Of a DNA stretch of 64,000 nucleotides, positions 5,873-49,782 are shown piece after piece. The translations under genes and the position numbers were made by a program. The notes under the pieces were generated by a model. It did no database searches. It was given only the letters and a program-made list of their open reading frames with translations, and was not told where the DNA came from. The stretch's first letter is position 1, and the number at the start of each line of letters is the position of its first letter. Source of the stretch: a virus; IMG/VR virus record IMGVR_UViG_3300013772_000002, positions 40,817 through 104,816 of that record; one strand, given 5' to 3'.

Positions 5873-7996
5873 CTATGCCACAACGAACACGGGAGTCCAG
5901 TCGCACTGGCTGTAGCCGCAGGATTGGCAGGTGACACAACCACCGTCGTCCGCCATCGCATCGATCCCGCAATTCGGACAGCAGACGTCGTCATCGCCGG
6001 TCATTTCCGTCGATGCCTCCAGAAGAGCCTGTGGTGCCCCTCCACGCGCGAGAAGGCGGTCATCGGCAGTCTTGCCAATGTTATAGACCTGAACCTCCTT
6101 GCAGCCGTCACGGTAGATCGTCGTGCCCATGCAACCCGATGTGTACGAGAGGATGTACGCGGCACCGATCTCTTCACGCGTTGTCGAGTTTGGAGCATTC
6201 CCGGTCTTGGAAATGCCCGAATCGTTGTGCTCCTGCCATGCCGCCTGCATGAGGATGTGGTCGGTGAGCGAAATATCTCCCGCGGTGCGGAAGACGCGCT
6301 GCCATCGCTCCGGTACCATTGCAACGCCTTGGACTGACCCAGTCGCGACAACGTGTGCCTCCAGATCGCCTGACCAGAACCCCTCGTGTTCGGCCACGGC
6401 CCGGAAGGCGGCGTTAGCGATCTTCAGGTTGCGCCATGAGCCGTCGGTCTGCTTGACCGAGTGGTAAGCGAAGAGGGCAAAGACGGGCTCGATGCCGCTG
6501 GAACAATTGCCAAGAATTGAAATTGATCCGGTCGGCGCCACGGTCGTGAGGTTACTGTTGCGTCGCGGTGCGTCGTTTTTGTAGCGTGAGACGTTTTGTA
6601 GCGGGAAAGCCCCCCGATCGACCGCCAAGTTTTCCGAGGCAGAGATCGCCTCCTCATTAAGGACGCGCATGATATCGTTGCCCAGGGCACGAGCCTCGGG
6701 TGTGTGGTAGGCGATGCCCAGCAGAAAAAGGAGGTCAGCGAATCCCATCACGCCGAGACCGATCCGGCGCAAGTCTTGTGCGCGCTTGGTGATCTGTGGT
6801 AGTGGGAAGGGGTTGATCTCGATCACGTCGTCGAGGAAGCGGGTCGCGAGGCGGACGACGGACCGGAAGCGTGCCCAATCGAAGATCGGAATACCAAGTC
6901 CATACCCGCCAAAGTAGTGCGTGACGCTCTCGATAACAAAACGTCCGAGATTAATAGAGCCTAGATTGCAAACATCATATGGCCCCAAAGGTTGCTCTCC
7001 GCACGGATTAGTTGCCTCAATGCTTTCTATCTCTGGGATCGGATTCGCACGAGAAGCATTAACGCGATCGAGGAAGATAAGCCCCGGATCGCCCGTCCGC
7101 CACGCACAGTCAACAATCTGGTCCCAGATGTCGCGTGCCCGGCGCCGACTCGTCACCGCCTTCGTGTCGGGATCGATGAGATCGTATTCGCCATCTTCGC
7201 GTACCGCGTCCATGAAGACGTCAGTAATGCCGATCGAGCAATTAAAGTTCGTAATCGGATACTGAACTTCGTTCGTGCCGTTTAGTTTTGCGAGGACGCC
7301 GATTGGCTCCTTGCAATGAATGAATGTTTCCACGTCGGTATGATCGCAGCGTAATACCGCCATATTCGCGCCACGGCGGGTGCCCCCTTGCTTGATTTGC
7401 TCCGTTGCTACGTCGAAGATTTTCAAAAAACTGACGGGTCCGGACGCAACTCCCATGCTCCTTTTCACGGTTGCGCCCGCGGGACGGAGGCGCGAGAAAG
7501 AAAACCCGGTTCCGCCGCCGCTCTGATGCACAGTGGCAGCATCTCGTATTGTATTAAAGATTCCCTCTATTGAATCTTCGATAGGCAAAACAAAACATGC
7601 TGACAACTGAAGACCGTTCCCCTTCCCGGCGTTCATCAGACAGGGGCTATTGGGCAGGAAGTCTCCAGAGAGCAGCAGATCGGCGAATTGATCTCCGACG
7701 CGAGCGATCGCCGCATCTTCCTGGTGACCGCAAGCATCGAGATAGGTGGTGAATTCTTCGCGCGGCGTGAGGCCCGGCACGGAACCCCATTCGCTTCCGG
7801 CGCGCTCTTGATCAATCTTGACAAATTCGCGCTCGCCCTCGGCGACGGCGTATGCGACGCGTTTGTAGAGTCCCTGGGGAGTTTCGGTAATAGTGACTGT
7901 ACCATCTGGTTGTTTAACTTTTTGAAGATAGCGTTCTTCGAGGACGCGGAGCGCGGCGTCAGTAGTAAGGGGCGGTGAGTAAGGAGCGATGGTCAC
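5873..7996 (-). CDS. nrdJ: class II (adenosylcobalamin-dependent) ribonucleotide reductase
   Basis: The 707-residue enzyme reduces ribonucleotides to deoxyribonucleotides in the cytoplasm. The start is GTG 7996 with AGGAGG eight bases upstream, inside the end of the FtsH-like gene. The catalytic cysteines are visible as LSACFV, NPCGEQ (radical-site loop) and VCNLGSINLG, and the barrel carries the class II signatures LPNSPCLMNAG, HQSGGGTGFSFSRLRP and KQGGTRRGANMAVL. The C-terminus has the cysteine-rich unit typical of NrdJ (CCPNCGIDAM, CVTCQSCGYSQC), used for re-reduction or metal binding. There is no separate radical-generating subunit gene in the window, as expected for class II. The enzyme needs vitamin B12 from the host. 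It is the last gene of the transcript that starts with the MazG-like gene. Confidence 0.95.
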   Translation of the reverse strand: MTIAPYSPPLTTDAALRVLEERYLQKVKQPDGTVTITETPQGLYKRVAYAVAEGEREFVKIDQERAGSEWGSVPGLTPREEFTTYLDACGHQEDAAIARVGDQFADLLLSGDFLPNSPCLMNAGKGNGLQLSACFVLPIEDSIEGIFNTIRDAATVHQSGGGTGFSFSRLRPAGATVKRSMGVASGPVSFLKIFDVATEQIKQGGTRRGANMAVLRCDHTDVETFIHCKEPIGVLAKLNGTNEVQYPITNFNCSIGITDVFMDAVREDGEYDLIDPDTKAVTSRRRARDIWDQIVDCAWRTGDPGLIFLDRVNASRANPIPEIESIEATNPCGEQPLGPYDVCNLGSINLGRFVIESVTHYFGGYGLGIPIFDWARFRSVVRLATRFLDDVIEINPFPLPQITKRAQDLRRIGLGVMGFADLLFLLGIAYHTPEARALGNDIMRVLNEEAISASENLAVDRGAFPLQNVSRYKNDAPRRNSNLTTVAPTGSISILGNCSSGIEPVFALFAYHSVKQTDGSWRNLKIANAAFRAVAEHEGFWSGDLEAHVVATGSVQGVAMVPERWQRVFRTAGDISLTDHILMQAAWQEHNDSGISKTGNAPNSTTREEIGAAYILSYTSGCMGTTIYRDGCKEVQVYNIGKTADDRLLARGGAPQALLEASTEMTGDDDVCCPNCGIDAMADDGGCVTCQSCGYSQCDWTPVFVVA

Positions 7997-13690: not shown

Positions 13691-15751
13691 ATGCCTGTCG
13701 CTACCTCCGCCGTTGACCCGCTCGACGATTTGTTTGGCGCGATCAAGGGCAAACTCAGCCAGCAAGTACAGCGCGACGAGCGCGCCCGGCTTCGCCTCGC
13801 AAGCGGCGGGGCGATTGGTGCTGGCGGCTCGGCTCTGCGCATGTACGAAGAAGGGACGATCTGGACGGATGGTATTGCGCCACCAACCTTCGTCGATTTC
13901 GTCACGAACGAGATGGAGGGCTTTCTTTATCCTCTGCAGGCCGAAGCAATCATGGCCGCGATTGGCAACGATCCTGCTTTGCTCTTTCATCCGCGAGTCG
14001 ACGAGAACGAGTATTACAACGATTGGCCGAATGGTCCACCACTACGCAATATTATATCTACTATTATCTTGTTATGGGGTAAGGGAAGCGGAAAAGACCT
14101 CATCATTTCATATCTAGTATCATATATAGTGTTTGTAATCATGCACATGGCAGACCCCTATGCATACTTTCATCATGCCCCCGGTGAACCCTTCGACATC
14201 ATTAACTGCGCCATTAATGCCCACCAAGCGCAGAACGTCTTCTTCCGTAAGCTCAAGAATTGTTTGTTGCGTGAGTGTTTTCAGAAGTTCGGCAGTAGGC
14301 CCGACATCCTCACTGATCGTGCCATCTTCTACCGCGTTGTTCCGGGCATCTCCGAGCCGGTCGAACTGATTCGTTGCTGGTCACGCCACTCGAAATCTGA
14401 ATCGATTGAGGGGATGAATATCATCGCCTTTATCCTCGACGAGGCATCGGGATTCGAGCTCAAGGGGAAGAAGGAACTGGCGGAAGACGACGAGGGCGAA
14501 GAGTACGCCCTCTCTCCCGCCGATGCGATCTTCGATGTTCTCGAAACATCCGCCGCAACGCGCTTCGAGGATCAGTACCTGGGATTCGTGATTTCGTATC
14601 CACGCTTTGAAGATGACTTTACGATGCGGATGTATAACCGGACACTTCTGGATCATCCAATGAACTACTTCTCGTTGGACGACATCGATGATCCGAATGA
14701 CTCCGTCGGGCTATCGCGGATCGGCAAGTTGAAGTATCCCCACATCTTCGCGCATAAAGCGGCTACCTGGGAAGTCAACCTCAAGAAACCACGCAGTGCA
14801 TTCGATAAGTTCTTTCGTGCCAATCCTGAGAAGTCGGCGATGCGCTTCGCTTGCGAACCGCCCCCCGCCAAGGGCGGCTACTTCTCGCAGCCACAAAAGA
14901 TTGACGAGGCATTCAGTGAACGCCTTCGCCCCGCTGTCCAGTGGACCGTCGACCATATTCGCCGCGGCTCTCAGGAGTTGGTCGGCGTCAAGTTGACAGG
15001 GCACCGCTTCTCTCCCGCCAACCTCTATGTTGCCCACTGCGATCCCGGTCTGAGTTCTGACGCTTTCACGCTCGGTATCGCGCACCCGAACTACGCGGTA
15101 CAAGCGGAAATCTTCGACTCCAAAGGAAAGGCGTACACGGTTCCGCAGGTGGTGATCGACTCGCTTATCGTCTGGCGTCCCGAGCCGCGCGAGCATCGTG
15201 TCGTTGATTTCATTAATGCCTCGCAGGTGATTCTCGATCTGGCCGGACTTTGTGACATGCGTCGTTGGTCGGCGGATCGTTGGAACAGCGCCCAGTTACA
15301 ACAACAACTGACTGCCGCTGGCATTCGCTGTGAGTACGCCGCCTTCTCGAATGCACAGCAAATCCAGCAGTACGAGAATTTCAAGACACTCCTCTATGCC
15401 GGACTGATCAAGTTCAGTGGTTTCTGGGATGTCGAGCCCTGGCGGCGCGTACGAGACGAACTTCGCAAGTTGATCCTCATCAATGGCACGCGCATCGATC
15501 ACCAAACGGGCGGATCGAAAGACTGTGCGGATGTCGTTGTTGGTGCTACCTGGCTCGCTTGCCAAAAAGGTCTCTCGCAGCGGGCATTCGAGGGATACGC
15601 TCCCCCCGCTCCGGGTCATGCCACTCTCCACCAGCACAACCAGACAACATCGACCCTTGATACCTTGCGCCGCATGCACCGCGCTCCAAACGCGAAGGAA
15701 ACGCTGCGGCTCCCCTACGCCAAGTCCCGCATTTCGGCAGGAGTTAGCTAA
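13691..15751 (+). CDS. terL: terminase large subunit
   Basis: The 686-residue DNA-packaging motor has an ATPase and a nuclease part. The Walker A-like motif is WGKGSGKD at about 129-136, and Walker B with the catalytic Glu is IIAFILDEASG. The nuclease domain shows spaced acidic positions in YVAHCDPGLSSDAF, in MRRWSADRWNS and in GGSKDCADVVVGAT, as in RNase H-like terminase nucleases. A 130-base patch around the Walker A motif (14040-14170) uses ATA, CTA and TTA codons that the rest of the gene avoids. The stop codon overlaps the portal start (TAATG), so the two are translationally coupled. Confidence 0.92.
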   Translation: MPVATSAVDPLDDLFGAIKGKLSQQVQRDERARLRLASGGAIGAGGSALRMYEEGTIWTDGIAPPTFVDFVTNEMEGFLYPLQAEAIMAAIGNDPALLFHPRVDENEYYNDWPNGPPLRNIISTIILLWGKGSGKDLIISYLVSYIVFVIMHMADPYAYFHHAPGEPFDIINCAINAHQAQNVFFRKLKNCLLRECFQKFGSRPDILTDRAIFYRVVPGISEPVELIRCWSRHSKSESIEGMNIIAFILDEASGFELKGKKELAEDDEGEEYALSPADAIFDVLETSAATRFEDQYLGFVISYPRFEDDFTMRMYNRTLLDHPMNYFSLDDIDDPNDSVGLSRIGKLKYPHIFAHKAATWEVNLKKPRSAFDKFFRANPEKSAMRFACEPPPAKGGYFSQPQKIDEAFSERLRPAVQWTVDHIRRGSQELVGVKLTGHRFSPANLYVAHCDPGLSSDAFTLGIAHPNYAVQAEIFDSKGKAYTVPQVVIDSLIVWRPEPREHRVVDFINASQVILDLAGLCDMRRWSADRWNSAQLQQQLTAAGIRCEYAAFSNAQQIQQYENFKTLLYAGLIKFSGFWDVEPWRRVRDELRKLILINGTRIDHQTGGSKDCADVVVGATWLACQKGLSQRAFEGYAPPAPGHATLHQHNQTTSTLDTLRRMHRAPNAKETLRLPYAKSRISAGVS

Positions 15752-17715
15752 TGCCCCGCGACCCGCGCATGCCAAACATCCCGGCGCCACCTGACTGGGA
15801 CTACCACCAGGGGAAAATCTATCTTCCCCCGACGATTGCCAAGTCAATTAGGGAAGAGAAGAGTGCCGAAGAGAAGGCGATCAAGGGGAAGCTCTTCTCC
15901 AACTGGTCCCGGACAATTACGCGTACCGCCGGCGGCGCCGTTGACCGTTCGCCGAACCGCCCCTCACACGCCCTCCTGAAGTACGTGGCACGTAACTGCA
16001 CGCTGGATTCAGCGATTATCTCGACACTCAAGGCGAACATTTCCGCCTTTACACAAGTCGCCCACGTCGAGGGGAAGCAGATTGGCTTCCGCGTCGTGCA
16101 CAAACGGTACAACGATCCCGCCTGGCAGCCGGACGAGGAGACGTTACACGATATCAATGATCGCTGCCGCCAGATGGAACGCTTGATCCTCAATACGACC
16201 AAGCCCGCCTGCCCTTCGTTCGCCACCTTTATGTCGGCGGCGACCGATGATGAGCTGACAATCGACCGCGCGAACATGGTGATCGTCCCTGACCGCCAGG
16301 GACGTCCCCTTAGTTATCACTATCTTCCCGGCGGGACGCTCTTGCCACGCTTCCTCTATCTCAAAGAGTTCATGGCTCGCTGGGGTAAAGAGGATTCGCT
16401 CTTCTATAATGACGACCGTGCCGCCCAACGTCTTTCCGAGGAGCTGAAACTTAACGGCGTGCGCACTCCCGAGGGGCACGAGATCGACCTGACGCATGCC
16501 GCTTTCGTACAGGTCCTTGATGACAATACCGTCTGTGGCGCTTGGACTGAGAAGCAATTGGCGATTGACATTATCAACCCGATGGTGGAGATCGACCAGA
16601 GTTACTTTGGCACTTCGCCGGTCGAGCAGTCACTCGACGTGAGCTATCTGTGGAACAGTGCCTGGAACTACCAGAAGCAGCTATTCCAAACGACCTGGCC
16701 CGAAGCGATCCTCCTGTTGCACGGCGACTACTCCCCCGAAGGGTTGCAGGGGTTCAAGGACGATGTCCTTGCCTCGCACGGTAACTCTCAACGTCTGCCA
16801 GTGATTTCCGGTGGTCCGAAAGGGGAGACCGACGTCTCGCTCGTTACATTGCGCAATACGCCACAGGACATGCTCTTCGACCAGCTGTTGAAATTCATGC
16901 TCGCGCTGAAGTGCGCCTTTTTTCGCATCCATCCCAGTACGATCAACTTCGCTTCCGAGGGCGCCGCTTCCGATGGCGGTCTGCCCCAAGACCGAAACTA
17001 CATCATCCAGCAGGCCAACGAAGAGGGCAACCGTTCGCGCCTGCGTCGTCGCTTCGGCTGGCTGACCCATCACCTGATCATCCCATGGTACGACGATCTG
17101 ATCGCCATTCCCGAAGGAATGGACATGGTTCCCTTCGAGCAGGTCATTCAACGTGAGATCGAGCTCTCCGGCGCGGGCATCAAGACGAAGAACGAGACGC
17201 GCGCGCAGATCGGTCTTCCGCCCATGCCCGATGGTCTACCTGGCTCCAACCTTGGCGACTGGACTGGATCACAGGTCGATGTCGCGATCGTCGGCGCCAT
17301 CCAGGCTCAGGAAGCGATGAAGCAGCAGCAACAGGCGCAGATGAACCCACAGAATGTCGCCGCACAACAGCCGGGCGCTAGCGGTGGCGACTATGGCGCC
17401 GACCAAGGGATGCCCCAGGGCGGTGCGACCACCCCACCTCCACAGGGTCAACCACCCCAACCCGGCGCCCCGCCGACGGGCGGACCACCCGCGGCGCCGC
17501 CGCCTCCTCCGGCACAAAAGAGTCTCAATCCATTGACGGAAACGGAGGGACATCCCCACCATCGGAAGACACATTACAGTCTTCTCTGGTCGGGTGGCCC
17601 GGTCGTGCCGCGCGGCGGTCTCGGTTCTGCCTACATGGAGGATGACGAGGACGACACTGATGATGGTCCGAATGGTTCGGACGATGATGGAGGCGAGGAT
17701 GGCGACGACGTCTAG
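15751..17715 (+). CDS. portal protein
   Basis: The 654-residue protein is assigned as the portal from its size, its coupling to terL, and features typical of the family: an N-terminal helical wing, a YFGTSPVEQSLDVSYLWNSAWNYQKQ helix run (clip and stem region), and residues about 320-355 (HGDYSPEGLQGFK, then RLPVISGG) that correspond to the portal core loop. The C-terminal 130 residues are low-complexity: Gln-, Pro- and Gly-rich, then an Asp-rich end. It should form the dodecameric ring at the head vertex through which DNA and internal proteins leave. A segment of it is mirrored in the small Tat-signal protein at 43098-43520. Confidence 0.85.
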   Translation: MPRDPRMPNIPAPPDWDYHQGKIYLPPTIAKSIREEKSAEEKAIKGKLFSNWSRTITRTAGGAVDRSPNRPSHALLKYVARNCTLDSAIISTLKANISAFTQVAHVEGKQIGFRVVHKRYNDPAWQPDEETLHDINDRCRQMERLILNTTKPACPSFATFMSAATDDELTIDRANMVIVPDRQGRPLSYHYLPGGTLLPRFLYLKEFMARWGKEDSLFYNDDRAAQRLSEELKLNGVRTPEGHEIDLTHAAFVQVLDDNTVCGAWTEKQLAIDIINPMVEIDQSYFGTSPVEQSLDVSYLWNSAWNYQKQLFQTTWPEAILLLHGDYSPEGLQGFKDDVLASHGNSQRLPVISGGPKGETDVSLVTLRNTPQDMLFDQLLKFMLALKCAFFRIHPSTINFASEGAASDGGLPQDRNYIIQQANEEGNRSRLRRRFGWLTHHLIIPWYDDLIAIPEGMDMVPFEQVIQREIELSGAGIKTKNETRAQIGLPPMPDGLPGSNLGDWTGSQVDVAIVGAIQAQEAMKQQQQAQMNPQNVAAQQPGASGGDYGADQGMPQGGATTPPPQGQPPQPGAPPTGGPPAAPPPPPAQKSLNPLTETEGHPHHRKTHYSLLWSGGPVVPRGGLGSAYMEDDEDDTDDGPNGSDDDGGEDGDDV

Positions 17716-39611: not shown

Positions 39612-41057
39612 ATGACTGCCACCGCCTTCGCGCGTTTTCGGATGCGCGACACCGAGTTTTCCCGCAATGTCGCCGCCCAGTCGGTCGTCGGCTGCCGCGT
39701 CGAACTCGATGACGTCCCCGGGGCGGTGACGGTCAGCTATGCGCTCGTTCAAGAAGATTCACAGACGACGATCGCGACCAAGATTGTTGTGCCAACCGAG
39801 AAGCGTTTCGATGTTGGCATCGACCTGACCCGTGATTGCTTTGATCCCCTCTATCTTGGTCGTGCCGGACATCCTGACGTCAATGTTTATCAGGGTCGGT
39901 ACGGTCTTTATCACTGCGTCCTAACCCTGATGGATGGCATGAGCATGCCGATCGCCGTCGTCACGACGCCAAGTTTTGCGATTATGCCAGTCACGGTCAA
40001 AGAACTCAGAGGGGGATATGCGTATGGTTTGTCCGGACTTGCCTCCGATGTGATTGCCCCGGTCAAACAGCCAGTCAATATTACGGGCGTCACCATTGAG
40101 ACAATTTCTCCGACGATGTACAAGGCAAATTACACCCTTCGATGGAATGTTGGCGACGCGACACTGACGCTCGTGCCGAAGGTCCGCGTCCCGGGATTTC
40201 CGCCCCCGTCGGTCGCGATCGACCCCAATAGTGCCGGAACCGCCATCATGCATGTGAGTCCGCTCGGTGGCGACTACGCCACGATCGTTTATGACGGCTG
40301 GGACTTGCCGAATACCGATGCCGAGGACGTGATGGAGTTCGATAATGCTCGCATCAAGGACGAGGTCTGGCGTAAGCATATCTTCGACGCGATCCGCTAT
40401 GTTGAAAGCAAACTCTTTTGTTACGTCGAGCCTGTCCGCATCGCAACTGATGCCGATCTTGACCCAAGAGCAGTCGACAACGATCGGATGCCAGTTGGTT
40501 ACGAGAGGCCACCATCGCAAAACAACTGGCTCACCGTTCCCCTCCCCGTCCGCCCCTTGCTCGTCGTCAATCAGTTAATTGGCAAAATGAACGATGGCAA
40601 GGTACTCGATATTCCGCCGGAGTGGCGCAAAGTAGGCCGCCAGAACGGGCGCGTCTCACTCGTACCAAGCGCGGGTTCTCCGATTAACTGGTTGCTCTAT
40701 GGTCCACAATTCATCGGCTTCCTTTGGTACGGCTTTCCCAATATCCCCGACTTCTGGCATTATGCCGCGATCGCCGGTATCCCTGATTTCGACGGCGAAA
40801 TCTATTCTGACGTGCGCGAGTTGATCGCCAAACGAGCGATGGTCAACATCTTGCAGGTAATGGGACGAGCGTTGGCAGGTGGACGAAGTTCGGAAAGTTA
40901 TTCAAAAGACGGTATAAATACTTCATCTAGTTACACAAGTGGATCGGGTTCTCCAATGTATGGCGCCGAGATCGCCGAGTACAGTAAGCAGGTCGAGGAC
41001 GGTCTGAAACGAGCGCGCCAGCGGGTCCTTGGTATTATCAGTACTACCTTTTCCTGA
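39612..41057 (+). CDS. putative head-tail connector (neck) protein, 481 residues
   Basis: ATG 39612 follows AAGGAGAG. The N-terminal 250 residues are beta-rich with a repeated sandwich pattern (VTVSYALVQEDSQTTIATKIVV; YKANYTLRWNVGDATLTLVPK); the C-terminal 230 residues are mixed, with Trp/Tyr/Pro clusters (FLWYGFPNIPDFWHYAAIAG) and a helical end (GAEIAEYSKQVEDGLKRARQ). The Ser-rich segment before that helix uses AT-rich codons unlike the rest of the gene. Size and place between accessory head proteins and capsid genes suggest a neck or adaptor protein. A hairpin terminator follows. Confidence 0.5.
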   Translation: MTATAFARFRMRDTEFSRNVAAQSVVGCRVELDDVPGAVTVSYALVQEDSQTTIATKIVVPTEKRFDVGIDLTRDCFDPLYLGRAGHPDVNVYQGRYGLYHCVLTLMDGMSMPIAVVTTPSFAIMPVTVKELRGGYAYGLSGLASDVIAPVKQPVNITGVTIETISPTMYKANYTLRWNVGDATLTLVPKVRVPGFPPPSVAIDPNSAGTAIMHVSPLGGDYATIVYDGWDLPNTDAEDVMEFDNARIKDEVWRKHIFDAIRYVESKLFCYVEPVRIATDADLDPRAVDNDRMPVGYERPPSQNNWLTVPLPVRPLLVVNQLIGKMNDGKVLDIPPEWRKVGRQNGRVSLVPSAGSPINWLLYGPQFIGFLWYGFPNIPDFWHYAAIAGIPDFDGEIYSDVRELIAKRAMVNILQVMGRALAGGRSSESYSKDGINTSSSYTSGSGSPMYGAEIAEYSKQVEDGLKRARQRVLGIISTTFS

Positions 41058-42018: not shown

Positions 42019-43101
42019 TTGGCTAAAACCCCAGCACCCACGGCAGCATCGCGCGACGAACAAAAACAAGCCGCACTCGCCATGGCGATCGGTCAGATCG
42101 AAAAAGCGTATGGCAAGGGTTCGGTGATGTATCGCGACAATATCGCGCGCCTTCCGGTCTCGGTGATTTCCACGGGAGCGATCGCTCTCGACCTTGCGCT
42201 TGGCGTCGGCGGTCTGCCGCGCGGACGAATCACGGAGATTTACGGCGCTGAGGGTTCAGGAAAAAGCTCGTTGTGTTTTCATGTGATCGCCGAGGCGCAG
42301 AAAGCGGGCGGTCTCGCTGCTTTTATTGATATGGAGCACGCGGTCGATCCTGTTTTCGCGGCCAAATGTGGTATGGACATGCACAACCTCGTTTTCTTGC
42401 AGCCCGACACGGGAGAGCAAGCGCTAGAGGATGCGGAAACGCTGATTCGCTCGGGAGCGATCGATGTGGTGGTGATCGACTCTGTGGCGGCGCTTGTACC
42501 GAAAGCAGAGATCGATGGCGACATGGGCGACTCCCACATGGGTCTCCAGGCACGCCTGATGTCCCAAGGGCTGCGGAAGATCGCGGCGGCGATTAATCAC
42601 ACAAACACCTGCGTCATCTTCACGAACCAACTCCGGATGAAGATTGGGGTCGTTTGGGGCAATCCCGAGGTTCAGCCAGGCGGTCGGGCACTGAAGTTCT
42701 GGGCAGGCGTCCGCCTCGAAGTCAAGCGAGGCGACTCGATCAAGCGCGGCGATCTTGTCATTGGTCACCGCATGCGGGTAAATGTCGTCAAGAACAAGGT
42801 CGCGCCCCCATTCCGTCATGCAGAATTCGATATTATGTATTACGCCAACGGTATTTCTAAGTCGGGTGGCGTCCTGGATGTTGGTGAAGGGTTGGCCATC
42901 ATCGCGAAGACCGGATCGCACTACGCGTTCGGTGAAGAAAAACTTGGTCACGGGCACGAGGCGGCCAAGGCGTATCTAGATGCCAATCCGGAGACCATGG
43001 CGAAGATCGCTACTGCCATCTATGCGAAGGTAGAACAACACGGTTCCCCCGCACCGGGGATGACTGATACCTTGTTCTCAGAAGAGGAGGAGTTGGGATG
43101 A
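42019..43101 (+). CDS. recA: RecA recombinase
   Basis: The start is TTG 42019 with AAAGGAG eight bases upstream. The 360-residue protein is a full-length bacterial-type RecA: Walker [10 protein letters not shown] at 76-84, the catalytic MEHAVDP, Walker [13 protein letters not shown], the L1 region [18 protein letters not shown], the NQLRMKIGV segment, L2-adjacent [18 protein letters not shown], and the C-terminal [21 protein letters not shown]. The acidic tail (LFSEEEELG) is also typical. It should form filaments on single-stranded DNA and promote recombination or repair of replicating phage DNA. The next gene starts within its last codons (ATGA overlap). Confidence 0.97.
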
Positions 43102-43520
43102 CATTCACACGACGGGGATTCTTTCGGACTGCAGGCGGCGCGGTAGCGACCCTCGCTGCGGCGGCGACCAGCGGAGCGCTTCTGGCGAAGGCAATCGCGC
43201 CACCGCAGGACAATCCCGTGACATTTGATAAGCGCGGCCATCTCTCGATTACTACACCACCCGATCTTGATCTGGATCGGTTTCCCCTTGTGGTGACGGG
43301 CAATCTTGTGACGAATGACATCGACATGAAGAGCGAAAACCTTGTGCAGTGGAACGTTGTGCCCCCCGGTGGCTCTCTCGTAATTCATGGCAATTACAGC
43401 TCCGAAGGTCTGGAAGCATTCAAGCGTTCTGTCCTCGCGATGAACACCGACATGCACCGCCTCCCGATCGTCGCGAGCGATTCAGAGATGGACGAGAAGT
43501 TTACGTTCATCTCGAAATAG
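43098..43520 (+). CDS. twin-arginine signal protein with a portal-like segment, 140 residues
   Basis: ATG 43098 overlaps the recA stop. The N-terminus is a textbook twin-arginine signal: TRRGFF at residues 4-9, an Ala-rich hydrophobic stretch, then AKAIAPP with possible signal peptidase sites near 30-34. Residues 93-127 match residues about 320-354 of the portal: [13 protein letters not shown] against HGDYSPEGLQGFK, then V-L-A and R-L-P at the same spacing (15 identities in 29 by my count). I know no family with this combination. It may be an exported protein built from a portal fragment, or a fusion of unrelated origin. A strong terminator follows 22 bases downstream. Confidence 0.65.
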
Positions 43521-44784: not shown

Positions 44785-45681
44785 ATGCCCGAGACGGTCT
44801 ACTACAAAGATTTCCGTCCCGACGAACTCGAAGAGAGCTTCTCCTTCGGGATGCCAATCTCGAAGAGCGAGATGTGCGAGCACACGGGGTTGCGCTATAT
44901 CGAGGGGATTGCCTCTACCGAGGATTGGGACCAGCAGGACGAGCAGATGCTCGCTTCCGGCATGGACCTCGATTACCTCATCAATAAGGGTACGATCAAC
45001 TGGAACCACTCGCACGCCGCCGCCGATCTGATCGGCATCCCCGAGAAGGTTCAGATCAAGATTTGGGAAGGCAAGCCCGCCCTCTGGGTACGCGCCGCCC
45101 TCCTCCCCAATGTCGCGAATGCCGATTACGCCTGGACTCTGATGAATGCCTACGACTCGGTCAAATCGATGGGTGGTCCCATCCGCACCGTCGGTTGGTC
45201 AGTCGAGGGAGGCGTCCTCCGCAAGGAGAACGGACGCATCACCAAGAGCGTAATTCGCAACCTCGCCCTCACCCAGGAGCCGGTCAACGACAAGACCTTC
45301 GCCGACTTCGCCAAGTCGCTCAATCACAACGCGATCGCGAAGACCTTCTCCTCCGGCGGTTCGGTCAATCCAACCTTCGCTGGCGCGGATGACGCGGGTG
45401 CGGCTCTCCGGTTGGAGAACCTTTCCGCCGGTCGTCGCGACGAAGAGGACGAGGACGAGGAACGTAAGAACGGTACCTATAACGCCTCTCTGGTTGGTAT
45501 CGGCGAACTGCGCCGCTCCCTCGCCGCCAGCGGCTCTCCCCACTACGACGCGCGCACCGGGCGCTTCGTGAACGGATTTGACGGGATGTTCAAGCATCTC
45601 ACCCAGATCGATCTAATGCCGTTCGGTGCAGCGGCGGAATTGGTCAGTTGGCTGCGGGCGCAAAGCCTGCCCGCCGCGTAA
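44785..45681 (+). CDS. prohead protease with capsid-like segment
   Basis: I start at ATG 44785 (GGAG seven bases upstream); the ATG at 44755 is inside the leader hairpin region. The 298-residue protein has a prohead protease core: YIEGIASTEDWDQQDEQM, candidate catalytic His75 in INWNHSH, candidate Ser139 in GWSVEGGV, and the closing LALTQEPVN. It should cleave scaffold and capsid precursors inside the prohead. Residues 185-213 (AKTFSSGGSVNPT, then DAGAALRLENL) are nearly identical to residues 35-63 of the major capsid protein. An acidic linker (DEEDEDEE) and a small C-terminal domain follow, perhaps a scaffold-type tail or self-cleaved piece. Protease class is assigned from motif order, not proved. 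Confidence 0.8.
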   Translation: MPETVYYKDFRPDELEESFSFGMPISKSEMCEHTGLRYIEGIASTEDWDQQDEQMLASGMDLDYLINKGTINWNHSHAAADLIGIPEKVQIKIWEGKPALWVRAALLPNVANADYAWTLMNAYDSVKSMGGPIRTVGWSVEGGVLRKENGRITKSVIRNLALTQEPVNDKTFADFAKSLNHNAIAKTFSSGGSVNPTFAGADDAGAALRLENLSAGRRDEEDEDEERKNGTYNASLVGIGELRRSLAASGSPHYDARTGRFVNGFDGMFKHLTQIDLMPFGAAAELVSWLRAQSLPAA

Positions 45682-45698: not shown

Positions 45699-46652
45699 AT
45701 GGACTACACTGAGTACAACAAGCTCAACGAAGAGGCAAAGCCCTACTTCCTCAAGGCGTATGGTTTCACCGACGAGGAAATTCCCGGCGCGATGGCACTA
45801 CTCGCGAAGGGTCTTCAGGTGACGGCACAGCCGACCGCGGCCGCTGCCGCGACAGGCTTCAACGAGCACCCTGACAAAGCAAGCGTTGAGAAAGTCAAGG
45901 GGCGCGAAGGCGCCGAGACCGTTCCCGCGAGCAAGTACAACAAGAGCGATGCCGCGATGCTGGACGATGAGGAGCGGGAAGACGACGACGAAGATGGCGA
46001 CGGCATTCCTGATGACGAGGAGTACCCGCCCAAGGGCGCGATGAAGGCCAAGAAGAGCCAGACGCCCGACTTCGGTACCGAGGACTTTGCCGACGACTGG
46101 ATGGACACACTCGCCAAGAGCGCGGGTCCGCAGGTCGCGCCGCAGTTCGACGCCTCGGTTGTTCTCCAGTCGCTGCGCGACACAATCGCCGACATGTACG
46201 GTGAACTCGCCTTCGGCCTCCAGGAGATGCGCAAGTCGCTCGACACGGTCGATGCTCGCACGAAGAACATCTCCAAGCGGCAGACGGTCTCCAACAACAA
46301 GCTGGTTGACCACATCACGAAGACGATCGGCGAGATTCCCGGTCAGATCGAGACCTTGCAAAAGAGCATGGCCGCAGTCGCCGAATCCCCCGTCGCCCCG
46401 GTTTCCACGGGCGTCGTCCATCGCATCGAGAGCCATAACGGCGATGCGTCGAAGGGTGTCTACGTTCGGACGGGCAACTTCGACGCCGACCATGCAAAGA
46501 TCAGCGCCTCGCTCGAGAAGAGTCTTCAGATGACGACCGGCCCCGACGAGGTCGAAATCCAGAACGTGATGATCAAGATGCCGCGCGTCAAGAATTACGA
46601 CGAACTTGACTGGCTGACGGCGAGCGTCAAGCCCGAGTATCTCAGCCGCTAA
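45699..46652 (+). CDS. putative capsid scaffold protein, 317 residues
   Basis: ATG 45699 has GGAGG ten bases upstream; the frame open to 45648 is a shadow of the protease end. The position between protease and major capsid genes, the high charge and the long helical C-terminal half (SLRDTIADMYGELAFGLQEM, then QIETLQKSMAA) fit a scaffold. Residues about 90-108 hold an acidic run with DEDGDGIPDDEE, which looks like a thrombospondin type 3 calcium-binding repeat. The C-terminus (MIKMPRVKNYDELDWL) may be the capsid-binding part. Function is inferred from order and composition. Confidence 0.65.
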   Translation: MDYTEYNKLNEEAKPYFLKAYGFTDEEIPGAMALLAKGLQVTAQPTAAAAATGFNEHPDKASVEKVKGREGAETVPASKYNKSDAAMLDDEEREDDDEDGDGIPDDEEYPPKGAMKAKKSQTPDFGTEDFADDWMDTLAKSAGPQVAPQFDASVVLQSLRDTIADMYGELAFGLQEMRKSLDTVDARTKNISKRQTVSNNKLVDHITKTIGEIPGQIETLQKSMAAVAESPVAPVSTGVVHRIESHNGDASKGVYVRTGNFDADHAKISASLEKSLQMTTGPDEVEIQNVMIKMPRVKNYDELDWLTASVKPEYLSR

Positions 46653-46791: not shown

Positions 46792-48300
46792 ATGCTGACT
46801 CAGGAACGCAAGCAACTCGTCAAGAGCTTTTATCAGCTCGGGCGCGAGGCGATCGGCCAAGACTTCCGACCCAATGAGATGGTGAATGAGTTCGCCAAGA
46901 CGTTCTCGTCCGGCGGCTCGGTTAATCCGACGCTTGCGGGCGCCGGTGACGCGGGTGCGGCTCTCCGTTTGGAGAACCTCGACCCGATTATGACGACCGT
47001 CCTCTATGACGAGTCGGACATCAAGATTTTCCCTTGGATCGAGCGCGAAGTCTCGACGCAAGCGATGTTCATGTATAACAAGCGACTCAGTTACGGCGGC
47101 GGCGGTCGCGGTAAGGCCGGTTTCGCCGAAGGCAACACGCCTGTCGGTGGAACCGCGACGTACGAGCGCGATATCGCCCAGATTCGCTACATGGGCACCC
47201 GGCGCGGAACGACCCACCAGTTCACCACGATGAGTGAGGCGGGCGGCACACAGCTCGACATCATCGACGAGGAGAACCGGAACGGCACGATGGCACTGAT
47301 GGAGATGATCGAGCGCGCGACCCTCTGGGGCGACGCCCGCATTCTCGATGACAGCGGCACCGTCGTGCATTACGACGGCGTGATTCGCCAGCTTTTGGCC
47401 AGTCCGTTCGCGGTCTCAAACGTCCTCGACTTGCGCGACTCGATCAACCCGGACGTCTTCAACTTCATCGGTACGCAACTCCGCCAGGAAGGCAAGCTGC
47501 ATTCGAGCGGCTTCGCCAAGATGTGCGCGTTCATGCCGCCAACCAGCAAGGCAACGCTCTCGCAGGAGCTCTACTCGACGCAGCGCGTCGTTGTGCAGCA
47601 AACCAGCGGAACGGCGAATCCGAACCCCTACAGCCAGCTCGGCACGATGATCGACGGGATGACGACCAACTTCGGCTACCTGCGCTTCGAGGACTCCATC
47701 CTCATGGAGCGGGTCGATACGTCCCTGCCGGTCAATAGCTTCTCCGCTTCCGGTGACGCGGGCGCTCCGGTCGCACCAGCATCGGCGACAGCAACGGCGG
47801 CGGCTGTTGCCGGCGGACGCGTCTCCAAGTTTGCCAAGGCGCTTACCGCCACCTACTGGGTCTCGGCCTTCAATAACTACGGCGAGTCTTTGTCGGTTGC
47901 CAGCGCGGCGACGGTGATCGCGGGCGCCAACGCCCAAGAAGTCAACATCGTCATGCCCGCGACGGTCGGCGCGTGGGGCTATCGCATCTATCGTTCCGAC
48001 ACGGACGGGTTGGCGACAAGTGCCGGGATCATCGACGAGATTCCCGCCGCGCTTTCCGGTAACACGACCTTCCACGACGATAACGTGTGGCTGCCGAATA
48101 CGGATACAATCGTCATGATCGAGCGCGACAAGCGCGACCTCTCGATCGTCCAGCTGATGCCGCTGATCAAGTTCCCCCTCGCCGTGGTCTCGACCAAGCA
48201 GGAATTCCTCCTGATGCTCTACCACACGGTCCTTCTCAAGGCGGCGCAGCGCATGTTCATGATCAAAAACGTCACCCGACCGACGTTGACCACGTACTAA
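46792..48300 (+). CDS. major capsid protein
   Basis: ATG 46792 follows AGGAGG by ten bases; an upstream in-frame ATG at 46768 precedes that ribosome site and is unlikely. The 502-residue protein has an N-terminal region (1-65) probably removed at maturation, then ENLDPIMTTVLYDESDIKIFPWIERE, a gene pattern seen in capsid proteins of SPO1/Twort-like myoviruses with an HK97 fold, followed by YGGGGRGKAGFAEGNTPVG and IERATLWGDARIL. Residues about 326-435 form an inserted fibronectin-like domain (ATYWVSAFNNYGESLSVAS, WGYRIYRSD) before the fold resumes at LMPLIKFPLAVVS. A strong terminator follows the stop. It should be the shell subunit. Confidence 0.85.
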   Translation: MLTQERKQLVKSFYQLGREAIGQDFRPNEMVNEFAKTFSSGGSVNPTLAGAGDAGAALRLENLDPIMTTVLYDESDIKIFPWIEREVSTQAMFMYNKRLSYGGGGRGKAGFAEGNTPVGGTATYERDIAQIRYMGTRRGTTHQFTTMSEAGGTQLDIIDEENRNGTMALMEMIERATLWGDARILDDSGTVVHYDGVIRQLLASPFAVSNVLDLRDSINPDVFNFIGTQLRQEGKLHSSGFAKMCAFMPPTSKATLSQELYSTQRVVVQQTSGTANPNPYSQLGTMIDGMTTNFGYLRFEDSILMERVDTSLPVNSFSASGDAGAPVAPASATATAAAVAGGRVSKFAKALTATYWVSAFNNYGESLSVASAATVIAGANAQEVNIVMPATVGAWGYRIYRSDTDGLATSAGIIDEIPAALSGNTTFHDDNVWLPNTDTIVMIERDKRDLSIVQLMPLIKFPLAVVSTKQEFLLMLYHTVLLKAAQRMFMIKNVTRPTLTTY

Positions 48301-48327
48301 CCCGCGCTCCCCTTATTGTGACATGTC

Positions 48328-48358
48328 GGGGGAGCTCCGGCTCCCCCATTTCTTTTCT
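48328..48358 (+). terminator. intrinsic terminator after the capsid gene
   Basis: GGGGGAGC (48328-48335) and GCTCCCCC (48340-48347) flank a TCCG loop and are followed by ATTTCTTTTCT. Partial read-through would reduce expression of the downstream genes relative to the capsid protein. Confidence 0.9.
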
Positions 48359-48376
48359 CTCGGAGGACACACACCA

Positions 48377-49375
48377 ATGAATGAGTACGTGAACGAACCG
48401 ATGGGCAACCCCGTAGATGCGCATGTGAACGAACCCCTCCATGCTCCCGTTGCTTCGCACGCGGACGGGCGAGTCGTCAATGGGCACGTCGCGGACGGCG
48501 ACCCGTACGAGCGGATGAACGGCCCGATGCCGGTGCGCGTCAATGCGGCGAGCATCCCTCATCCTCATGACCCAGCAGACCATCGCGAAGATCGCGTGGA
48601 CGTCGATCACGACGGTCTGGGGCCGATCGTTGTCGAACGATTTACCGTTCGTGCCGCCGAAGCCGCTCTCTTCGGACGCACGGTCACCTTCGTTGCTCTC
48701 GACAACAAGGAAGACACCTTCGTCGTTGAATTCGACGCGACGGGGAATGGCACGATTGATGGCGATGCGACGATCTGCGCCGCCGATGCTGCGGTGATTG
48801 TCGGGAACGATCCCACACACACCATGTACGTCGCCACGGCGCTCGTCAGCACGCCATTCATGGCAAGCCTGCCCACGGCACTCGCCAGTCTAGTCAACAA
48901 CCCGACCGACTACTCTCACGTTGGCACGTCCGACCACCCGACCGATGACCCGACCGGAGACAATCACGTCGATCCAACCCACTATCTGAAGGTGGATACG
49001 ACGAATCATGCAACGGCTTACGTCGGGCAAGATGCAGTTGACGACCCGAACCGCGAAGTGATGGATGACTCAGACGACCATCCGTACCGCGAAGGAATTG
49101 ATGACCCGGACAACCGTCCAAATCATTTCCCGCTCCTCGGCAAGCACGAAGATCGCGCAGACCATGTAACGGATCGTCACGCGGATTACTCTGCGGATCG
49201 TCGTCCAGATTACCCGGCGGATCGTTCAACGGCTCGTCTTGCAGACTACCCGGTAAATCACTCAGCGGACGACTCGACTGACGATTCGCTCTTTGACCAA
49301 ATCGACGAACCAGTCGATGCCCCGGCTCCCATGCCGGTACGTGCGAATCGCGCGCCCAGGTTGGAACAGGAATAA
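48377..49375 (+). CDS. putative capsid decoration protein with Asp/His-rich tail, 332 residues
   Basis: ATG 48377 follows GGAGG. Residues about 90-165 form a domain (VVERFTV, LFGRTVTFVALDNKEDTFVVEFD, GNGTIDGD, NDPTHTMYVAT) paralogous to most of the next gene's product. Its GNGTIDGD loop resembles a dockerin or EF-hand type calcium site. The N-terminus (1-85) is rich in repeated VNEP/VDAHVNEP-like pieces and His; the C-terminal 150 residues are low-complexity with recurring DHP, DDP, ADY and ADR units. Position right after the capsid terminator suggests a head decoration protein or fibre. Confidence 0.55.
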   Translation: MNEYVNEPMGNPVDAHVNEPLHAPVASHADGRVVNGHVADGDPYERMNGPMPVRVNAASIPHPHDPADHREDRVDVDHDGLGPIVVERFTVRAAEAALFGRTVTFVALDNKEDTFVVEFDATGNGTIDGDATICAADAAVIVGNDPTHTMYVATALVSTPFMASLPTALASLVNNPTDYSHVGTSDHPTDDPTGDNHVDPTHYLKVDTTNHATAYVGQDAVDDPNREVMDDSDDHPYREGIDDPDNRPNHFPLLGKHEDRADHVTDRHADYSADRRPDYPADRSTARLADYPVNHSADDSTDDSLFDQIDEPVDAPAPMPVRANRAPRLEQE

Positions 49376-49428: not shown

Positions 49429-49782
49429 ATGACTGAACGTTTCACCGTTCATACCCACCAGTCCAATCTCTATGGTCGGGCGCTCAATTTCGTGGCGCTC
49501 GGTGACGACGAAGATACCTTCGTCGTCGAGTTTGACTGGACGGGAGTCGGTTCGATCGACGGTGACACGGAGATCACGGACGGTGACGCTCGGGTGATCG
49601 CCGCAAACGACCCCGGACGCACCATGTTCATCACTACGCCGATCTCCGATCCAATCCCCGATCCGGTCGTTGTGGAAGGGGAACCTGCGGAAACCCTAGA
49701 ACCCACACCGCCCCCAACAATCGTACCGCCACCCGCTCCACGCGGAAAGCCAGGACCGAAGCCCAAAGTAAAGGGAGCGTAA
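49429..49782 (+). CDS. putative capsid decoration protein, 117 residues
   Basis: ATG 49429 follows AAAGGA. Residues 1-75 match the core of the preceding protein: ERFTV, GRALNFVALGDDEDTFVVEFD, GVGSIDGD, then NDPGRTMFITT. A Pro-rich tail (PPPTIVPPPAPRGKPGPKP) replaces the Asp/His-rich one. Such tandem paralogs after the capsid gene are commonly minor head or decoration proteins; the calcium-like loop is retained. Four bases separate it from the next gene. Confidence 0.6.
   Translation: MTERFTVHTHQSNLYGRALNFVALGDDEDTFVVEFDWTGVGSIDGDTEITDGDARVIAANDPGRTMFITTPISDPIPDPVVVEGEPAETLEPTPPPTIVPPPAPRGKPGPKPKVKGA

Follow-up and report, generated by a model that had tools for sequence, protein, structure and literature searches.

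The prohead protease encoded in virus record IMGVR_UViG_3300013772_000002 carries, in the predicted linker between its two folded domains, a near-copy of the N-terminal arm of the major capsid protein (MCP), encoded 1.5 kb away. The match is real and no artefact; nor is it special to this phage, as it recurs within a protease family that is itself known. We propose that the segment starts with a processing site common to both proteins and continues as a mimic of the capsid arm, which would keep the protease docked in the prohead until it cleaves itself; we put the probability of this combined reading at roughly one half. 'Window' denotes the whole stretch of DNA that was analysed, 64,000 nucleotides in length (positions 40,817 to 104,816 of the record).

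A segment shared by the prohead protease and the capsid protein

The initial annotation had reported agreement at 27 of 29 positions between protease residues 185-213 and MCP residues 35-63, and pairwise blastp bore this out (E 7e-14). The aligned letters are AKTFSSGGSVNPTFAGADDAGAALRLENL in the protease, with residues counted from the ATG at 44785, and AKTFSSGGSVNPTLAGAGDAGAALRLENL in the MCP. At the DNA level, 73 of the 87 bases are identical, and the codon differences comprise 11 synonymous and 2 nonsynonymous ones. A chance match is ruled out by the E-value together with recurrence in relatives, and a recent copy or assembly duplicate by the 11 synonymous differences. No third copy was found in the whole 104,816-base record, a search of which gave only the protease and MCP places.

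From the differing third positions it had also been argued that this is no recent copy, but a protein sequence kept by selection. That it is not fresh stands, whereas the codons are not uniformly diverged. Protease residues 185-202 are saturated: the two genes share the codon at 7 of 16 positions, where codon usage predicts 5.8. Over residues 203-213 the count is 9 of 11 and the expectation 4.1 (P 0.003, with the split picked post hoc). Identical codons number 16 of 27 over the full segment (9.9 expected, P 0.011), and 18 of 30 over a longer aligned stretch with codon usage taken from the protease and MCP genes alone (13.6 expected, P 0.065). The excess in the 3' half makes a later partial exchange possible in the window lineage, and part of the identity there may come from DNA exchange.

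Head module of the window phage

Residues 14-213 of the protease gave a profile match to the head maturation proteases of PHROG 1028 (E 4.9e-26), and a Foldseek search with its AlphaFold2 model gave herpesvirus assemblin proteases as structural matches (probability 1.00, E 5e-4); a sequence search found no solved structures of protease relatives. In three alignments of relatives of the predicted protease, S139 is invariant and H75 nearly so (at least 90%), and K177 and S178 are kept in 90% or more of the 61 proteases compared. The mimic falls, in the AlphaFold2 model, into a disordered stretch between two folded domains (Table 1). For the MCP, which profile and fold matches place among the HK97-fold major head proteins, the best Foldseek match is the SPO1 capsid 9vel (E 6e-32), with a corresponding phmmer match to SPO1 gp6.1 (E 6e-29); the MCP monomer model has pLDDT <50 over residues 47-70. 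The probable scaffold gave no named family match in family searches, and no match better than E 0.6 was obtained between it and the protease.

Table 1 Features of the protease, scaffold and MCP genes. Positions are those of the window; a slash between residues marks the cut
Feature	Position	Strand	Evidence
Prohead (head maturation) protease, 298 aa	44785..45681	+	PHROG 1028; alternative GTG start 44755
Protease catalytic domain, residues 35-178	44887..45318	+	pLDDT about 97 over most of domain
Probable self-cleavage site K177/S178 (FAK/SL), end of catalytic domain	45313..45318	+	Conservation and scaffold-derived consensus
Predicted disordered linker, protease residues 181-231, contains mimic	45325..45477	+	pLDDT <50 (AlphaFold2)
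Capsid-arm mimic, protease residues 185-213	45337..45423	+	MCP match; equivalents in relatives
Probable cleavage site K186/T187, first residues of mimic	45340-45345	+	Homology
Small helical C-terminal domain, protease residues 240-295	45502..45669	+	pLDDT mostly 85-94
Probable scaffold / core protein	45699..46652	+	Acidic ORF between protease and MCP, place of SPO1 gp3.3
Major capsid protein (MCP), 502 aa	46792..48300	+	PHROG 752, E 3.6e-61
Probable MCP propeptide, residues 1-36, end at K36/T37 (46897-46902)	46792..46899	+	K24/S25 of Staphylococcus phage MCP
MCP N-arm segment matching protease, residues 35-63	46894..46980	+	27/29 identity

Bacillus phage SPO1 offers the closest layout for comparison: its gp3.2 protease and gp6.1 MCP are homologous to those of the window, the order protease-scaffold (gp3.3)-MCP is the same and its protease bears an arm-like segment. 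The two SPO1 segments are, however, ~40% identical over 63 aa, against 27 of 29 residues in the window. A further difference concerns the portal, which directly precedes the protease in SPO1. In the window, protease, scaffold and MCP are contiguous, but some 27 kb separate the protease from the only portal-like ORF found, which lies upstream (15751-17715); the row portal-protease-scaffold-MCP is therefore broken and the head genes are split.

Several other genes of the window deserve mention. Directly before the head module the window encodes a RecA-like recombinase (42019-43101, judged from its translation alone), followed by a short protein (43098-43520) whose start resembles a twin-arginine (Tat) signal peptide, unusual in a phage. 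Just 3' of the MCP, two neighbouring ORFs (48323-49375 and 49429-49782) have a common domain (RFTV...FVALD..EDTFVVEFD.TG.G.IDGD), the former also with a long repetitive tail rich in Asp, His and Thr. Additionally, a ribonucleotide reductase large subunit is encoded on the minus strand (5873-7996).

Recurrence in related phages

A search of related phages for the same duplication, suggested in the initial annotation, was carried out and found it in SPO1-type phages and in many of the pairs compared. Alignment queries retrieved the family, the window protease query alone retrieved four relatives, and the window MCP and arm queries alone found no close ones. The comparison set, enlarged with IMG/VR contigs, consisted of 79 non-redundant protease/MCP pairs; 57% of these outscore the 99th percentile obtained with shuffled controls. 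In SPO1, and in phages of Exiguobacterium, Lysinibacillus, Staphylococcus, Enterococcus and Bacillus, the protease linker likewise contains a lysine cleavage site and, after it, a stretch resembling the MCP arm. The SPO1 segments are LDKSLEAGYEVDPEKMEGGDVFRKESLDKDLKNLSY in the protease and LNKALEAGHTVNPLDLEGGGAFRVESLERSLHNLSF in the MCP; further pairs are KALSAGYQTSNQTGGSALRPESL and KALSAGYQTSGQTGGSALRVESL (L011), KALSVGHGTDSAGFTGGDALRTEDLE and KALTVGSGTDSALFTGGDALRPESLE (L044), and TTNSGPAMTERTSPLMKENLD and TTNSGPITVPRTSPLMLENMD (L021). They follow the pattern K-[AST]-[LMF], then residues that vary, then G-x-x-L-x-x-[EQ]-[SN]-L.

Some lineages have only a weak trace of the mimic or none that can be recognised, among them the nearest relatives of the window (L010, L096, L099 and L100) and the Bacteroides phage DAC19; the mimic is thus not indispensable across the whole family. 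Other genomes encode apparent protease-scaffold fusions, ORFs of ~480-550 aa (L030, L057, L081, L060, L090, L054 and L056, and further L086, L029, L084, L089, L076 and L037). At these loci the protease ORF extends to the MCP, so that a separate scaffold ORF would hardly fit in, and the arm motif is retained at the junction.

We found no published description of a capsid-arm mimic in a protease in the full-text literature, much of the subscription literature on SPO1/Twort-like phages lying outside that scope, and the accessible portions of the papers on phage 812, CKA15 and SPN3US mention no MCP-arm copy in the protease. The capsid-arm mimicry and its coevolution with the MCP are the new element here; the protease family itself is known.

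Probable cleavage sites

A shared cleavage site, one of the explanations initially offered for the match, fits the residues at K186/T187 of the protease and K36/T37 of the MCP, and leaves the 25-40 residues that follow unexplained. In chain 9row, the MCP of a Staphylococcus phage as deposited, the first residue is Ser25, right after the lysine aligned with K36 of the window (from the search with the N-terminal part of a Staphylococcus phage capsid protein, only the exact match to PDB 5lii and the 9row start were used). For the SPO1 MCP, cleavage at K23/A24 predicts a product of 445 residues (468 minus 23); 9vel_B has 445 modelled residues, which fits if the model is unbroken from residue 24. 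The MCP of these relatives appears cut at the equivalent lysine, rather than keeping residues 1-65 in its mature form.

Compared with expectation, K-S dipeptides are 3.3x as frequent in scaffolds and 2.7x in protease C-terminal regions, against 0.7x in mature MCPs; the window scaffold has six (K82, K119, K140, K179, K222 and K274) where 1.6 are expected from composition. Among 474 scaffold K-S sites, ~83% have L, V, I, M or F two residues before the lysine, the third position before the cut, giving a scaffold-derived consensus hydrophobic-x-K/S; the cleavage site inferred at the start of the segment has the form hydrophobic-x-K/(S, A or T). Window sites that fit are EFAK/TF in the MCP and AIAK/TF and DFAK/SL in the protease, the AK/TF motif being common to both proteins. 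That the first residues of the segment act as a processing site in protease and MCP alike is well supported by these sequence comparisons, from which we also infer self-cleavage of the protease within the segment.

A processing site alone might be thought sufficient, the longer match then being an extended recognition sequence, read on the P-prime side or by an exosite, with no docking involved. We consider this explanation unlikely, though deserving of serious attention: the cleavage-site residues match and covary, K-S pairs are over-represented in the scaffold and the protease linker, the Staphylococcus phage MCP chain 9row begins at the site and, in the accessible text on the giant phage SPN3US, gp245 self-cuts at a motif shared with its MCP (PMC10052503). 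However, the match extends 15-40 residues past the cut, whereas the 474 scaffold sites share hydrophobic-x-K-S alone, in scaffolds with neither arm motif nor covariation. Since these numerous sites and the nearly invariant K177/S178 of the protease all do without the arm motif, the motif is probably not needed for cutting, and cleavage alone leaves a match of 29-45 residues unexplained. The protease-scaffold fusions argue in the same direction, as they keep the motif even where the residues flanking the lysine differ from those of the MCP.

Coevolution of the two copies

Covariation was tested on a tree of protease domains and MCP bodies. At all 13 deep nodes the protease segment scored higher against the MCP of its own genome than in cross comparisons, by +24 on average (Wilcoxon p 0.0012 overall), with three control regions flat. 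Whole-clade permutation over 14 clades gave p 5e-5, a result that holds without the window too; the own MCP is the best match in 11 of the 14 clades, and the largest own-versus-cross contrast of any node is that of the window. Cleavage-site, linker and motif parts covary separately (11 of 11 deep nodes each). The covariation is found mainly at deep nodes, with little at shallow ones; between scaffold and MCP arm there is hardly any (mean +1.9 vs +26). The possibility that the scaffold bears a third copy of the arm was rejected, no convincing motif or tracking being seen there.

In the relatives, with the window excluded, 274 of 694 shared residues have identical codons where 297 are expected, which amounts to synonymous saturation. 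Own-lineage tracking in spite of such saturation argues that the match is maintained at the protein level, and the selection on protein sequence first proposed for the window is thereby supported family-wide. Independent drift after one ancient duplication predicts that a protease matches its own MCP no better than that of a sister lineage; the own MCP matches better while the controls stay flat, and drift is rejected.

Another explanation is that the segment was duplicated long ago and that gene conversion has since acted repeatedly on the neighbouring copies, which would have no function of their own. The codon excess at residues 203-213 and a window match far above those of its relatives speak for it, but the saturated codons of the other genomes bear no trace of conversion and the match persists through deep divergence. 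Moreover, the similarity stops at protease-type residues (ENLS-GRR in the proteases of the window and L102, against ENLD in the MCP). As an account of the match, functionless conversion is improbable.

Proposed docking of the protease in the prohead

In our proposal the window protease, a prohead protease with the assemblin fold, carries a mimic of the capsid arm in its linker. The protease would cut the I/F-A-K/T-F site in the MCP, removing propeptide 1-36, and the same site in itself, parting its catalytic domain from the C-terminal domain. The residues after the site, copying the mature MCP N-arm, would allow the protease to occupy the site at which the growing shell binds the arm, or alternatively to bind whatever partner the MCP arm itself binds; either way the protease would be carried into the prohead. 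Self-cleavage at K186/T187 (and K177/S178) would then free it to digest the K-S-rich scaffold. The docking and this order of events belong to the inferred part of the proposal; docking, which was also among the explanations initially offered, is a plausible candidate, in our analysis the best remaining one, for explaining the arm-like residues. The HK97 MCP offers a precedent: it is cut at a lysine-serine pair (K103/S104), and its N-arm, flexible before cleavage, afterwards docks on the shell in sites earlier held by scaffold (PMC10275583). HK97 has no separate scaffold. A protease with a copy of the arm could use such sites.

The covariation would also follow from exosite recognition of an extended substrate, or from binding of both segments to the scaffold. 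In the latter case the segments would be two copies of a core-targeting signal rather than shell ligands, in the manner of the short capsid targeting sequences that, in the accessible part of one source, T4 core proteins bear and the protease removes (PMC7411985). We give this little credence. The matched part remains on the mature MCP after cleavage, the 445 modelled residues of 9vel_B suggest an ordered arm in the mature, scaffold-free SPO1 capsid, and neither protease nor MCP shows sequence tracking with the scaffold. Least probable is an autoinhibitory pseudo-substrate, a reading also offered in the initial annotation, which we take to mean that the linker would fill the active site until assembly and then be displaced by MCP arms: the segment is substrate-like and lies just after the catalytic domain, but it is predicted disordered and outside the active site (in an AlphaFold2 monomer model of low confidence there), its lysine site remains cuttable rather than blocked, and the long arm-like extension is left unexplained.

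Comparison with known systems and significance

The docking proposal has parallels among the prohead proteases. In herpesvirus UL26 and lambda C/Nu3, the catalytic domain is followed by a linker cleavage site and then by a region responsible for carrying the protease into the procapsid, this targeting region being scaffold sequence. The fold of the window protease matches that of herpesvirus proteases, and some relatives are natural protease-scaffold fusions, but what the window protease shares is sequence of the actual capsid protein; sharing between protease C-terminus and scaffold is absent from the window and confined to some of the fused relatives. As far as the accessible text of the two sources goes, gp245 of Salmonella phage SPN3US is a prohead protease that self-cleaves at the motif of its own MCP (PMC10052503, PMC7411985), and its C-terminal propeptide was proposed to target the enzyme into the prohead (PMC7411985). 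It differs in cutting after A-x-E (PMC7411985, PMC10052503), whereas the window protease is predicted to cut after lysine. The same portions mention no capsid-arm copy for its propeptide; the window linker copies ~29-45 MCP residues, which coevolve.

For the family as a whole, it is possible, and we suggest it tentatively, that the proteases gain their place in the growing shell by posing as the N-arm of the capsid protein and release themselves at the junction; the arm copies, coevolved across about a dozen lineages, would then be a lineage-specific address label for head assembly. How a protease enters the prohead, and why it does so only there, is known for few phages. If the proposal is true, a capsid-arm copy that tracks its own MCP would be a simple recruitment signal in a large group of phages, including therapy phages, and would provide a sequence handle to predict cleavage sites of MCPs, proteases and scaffolds in this group.
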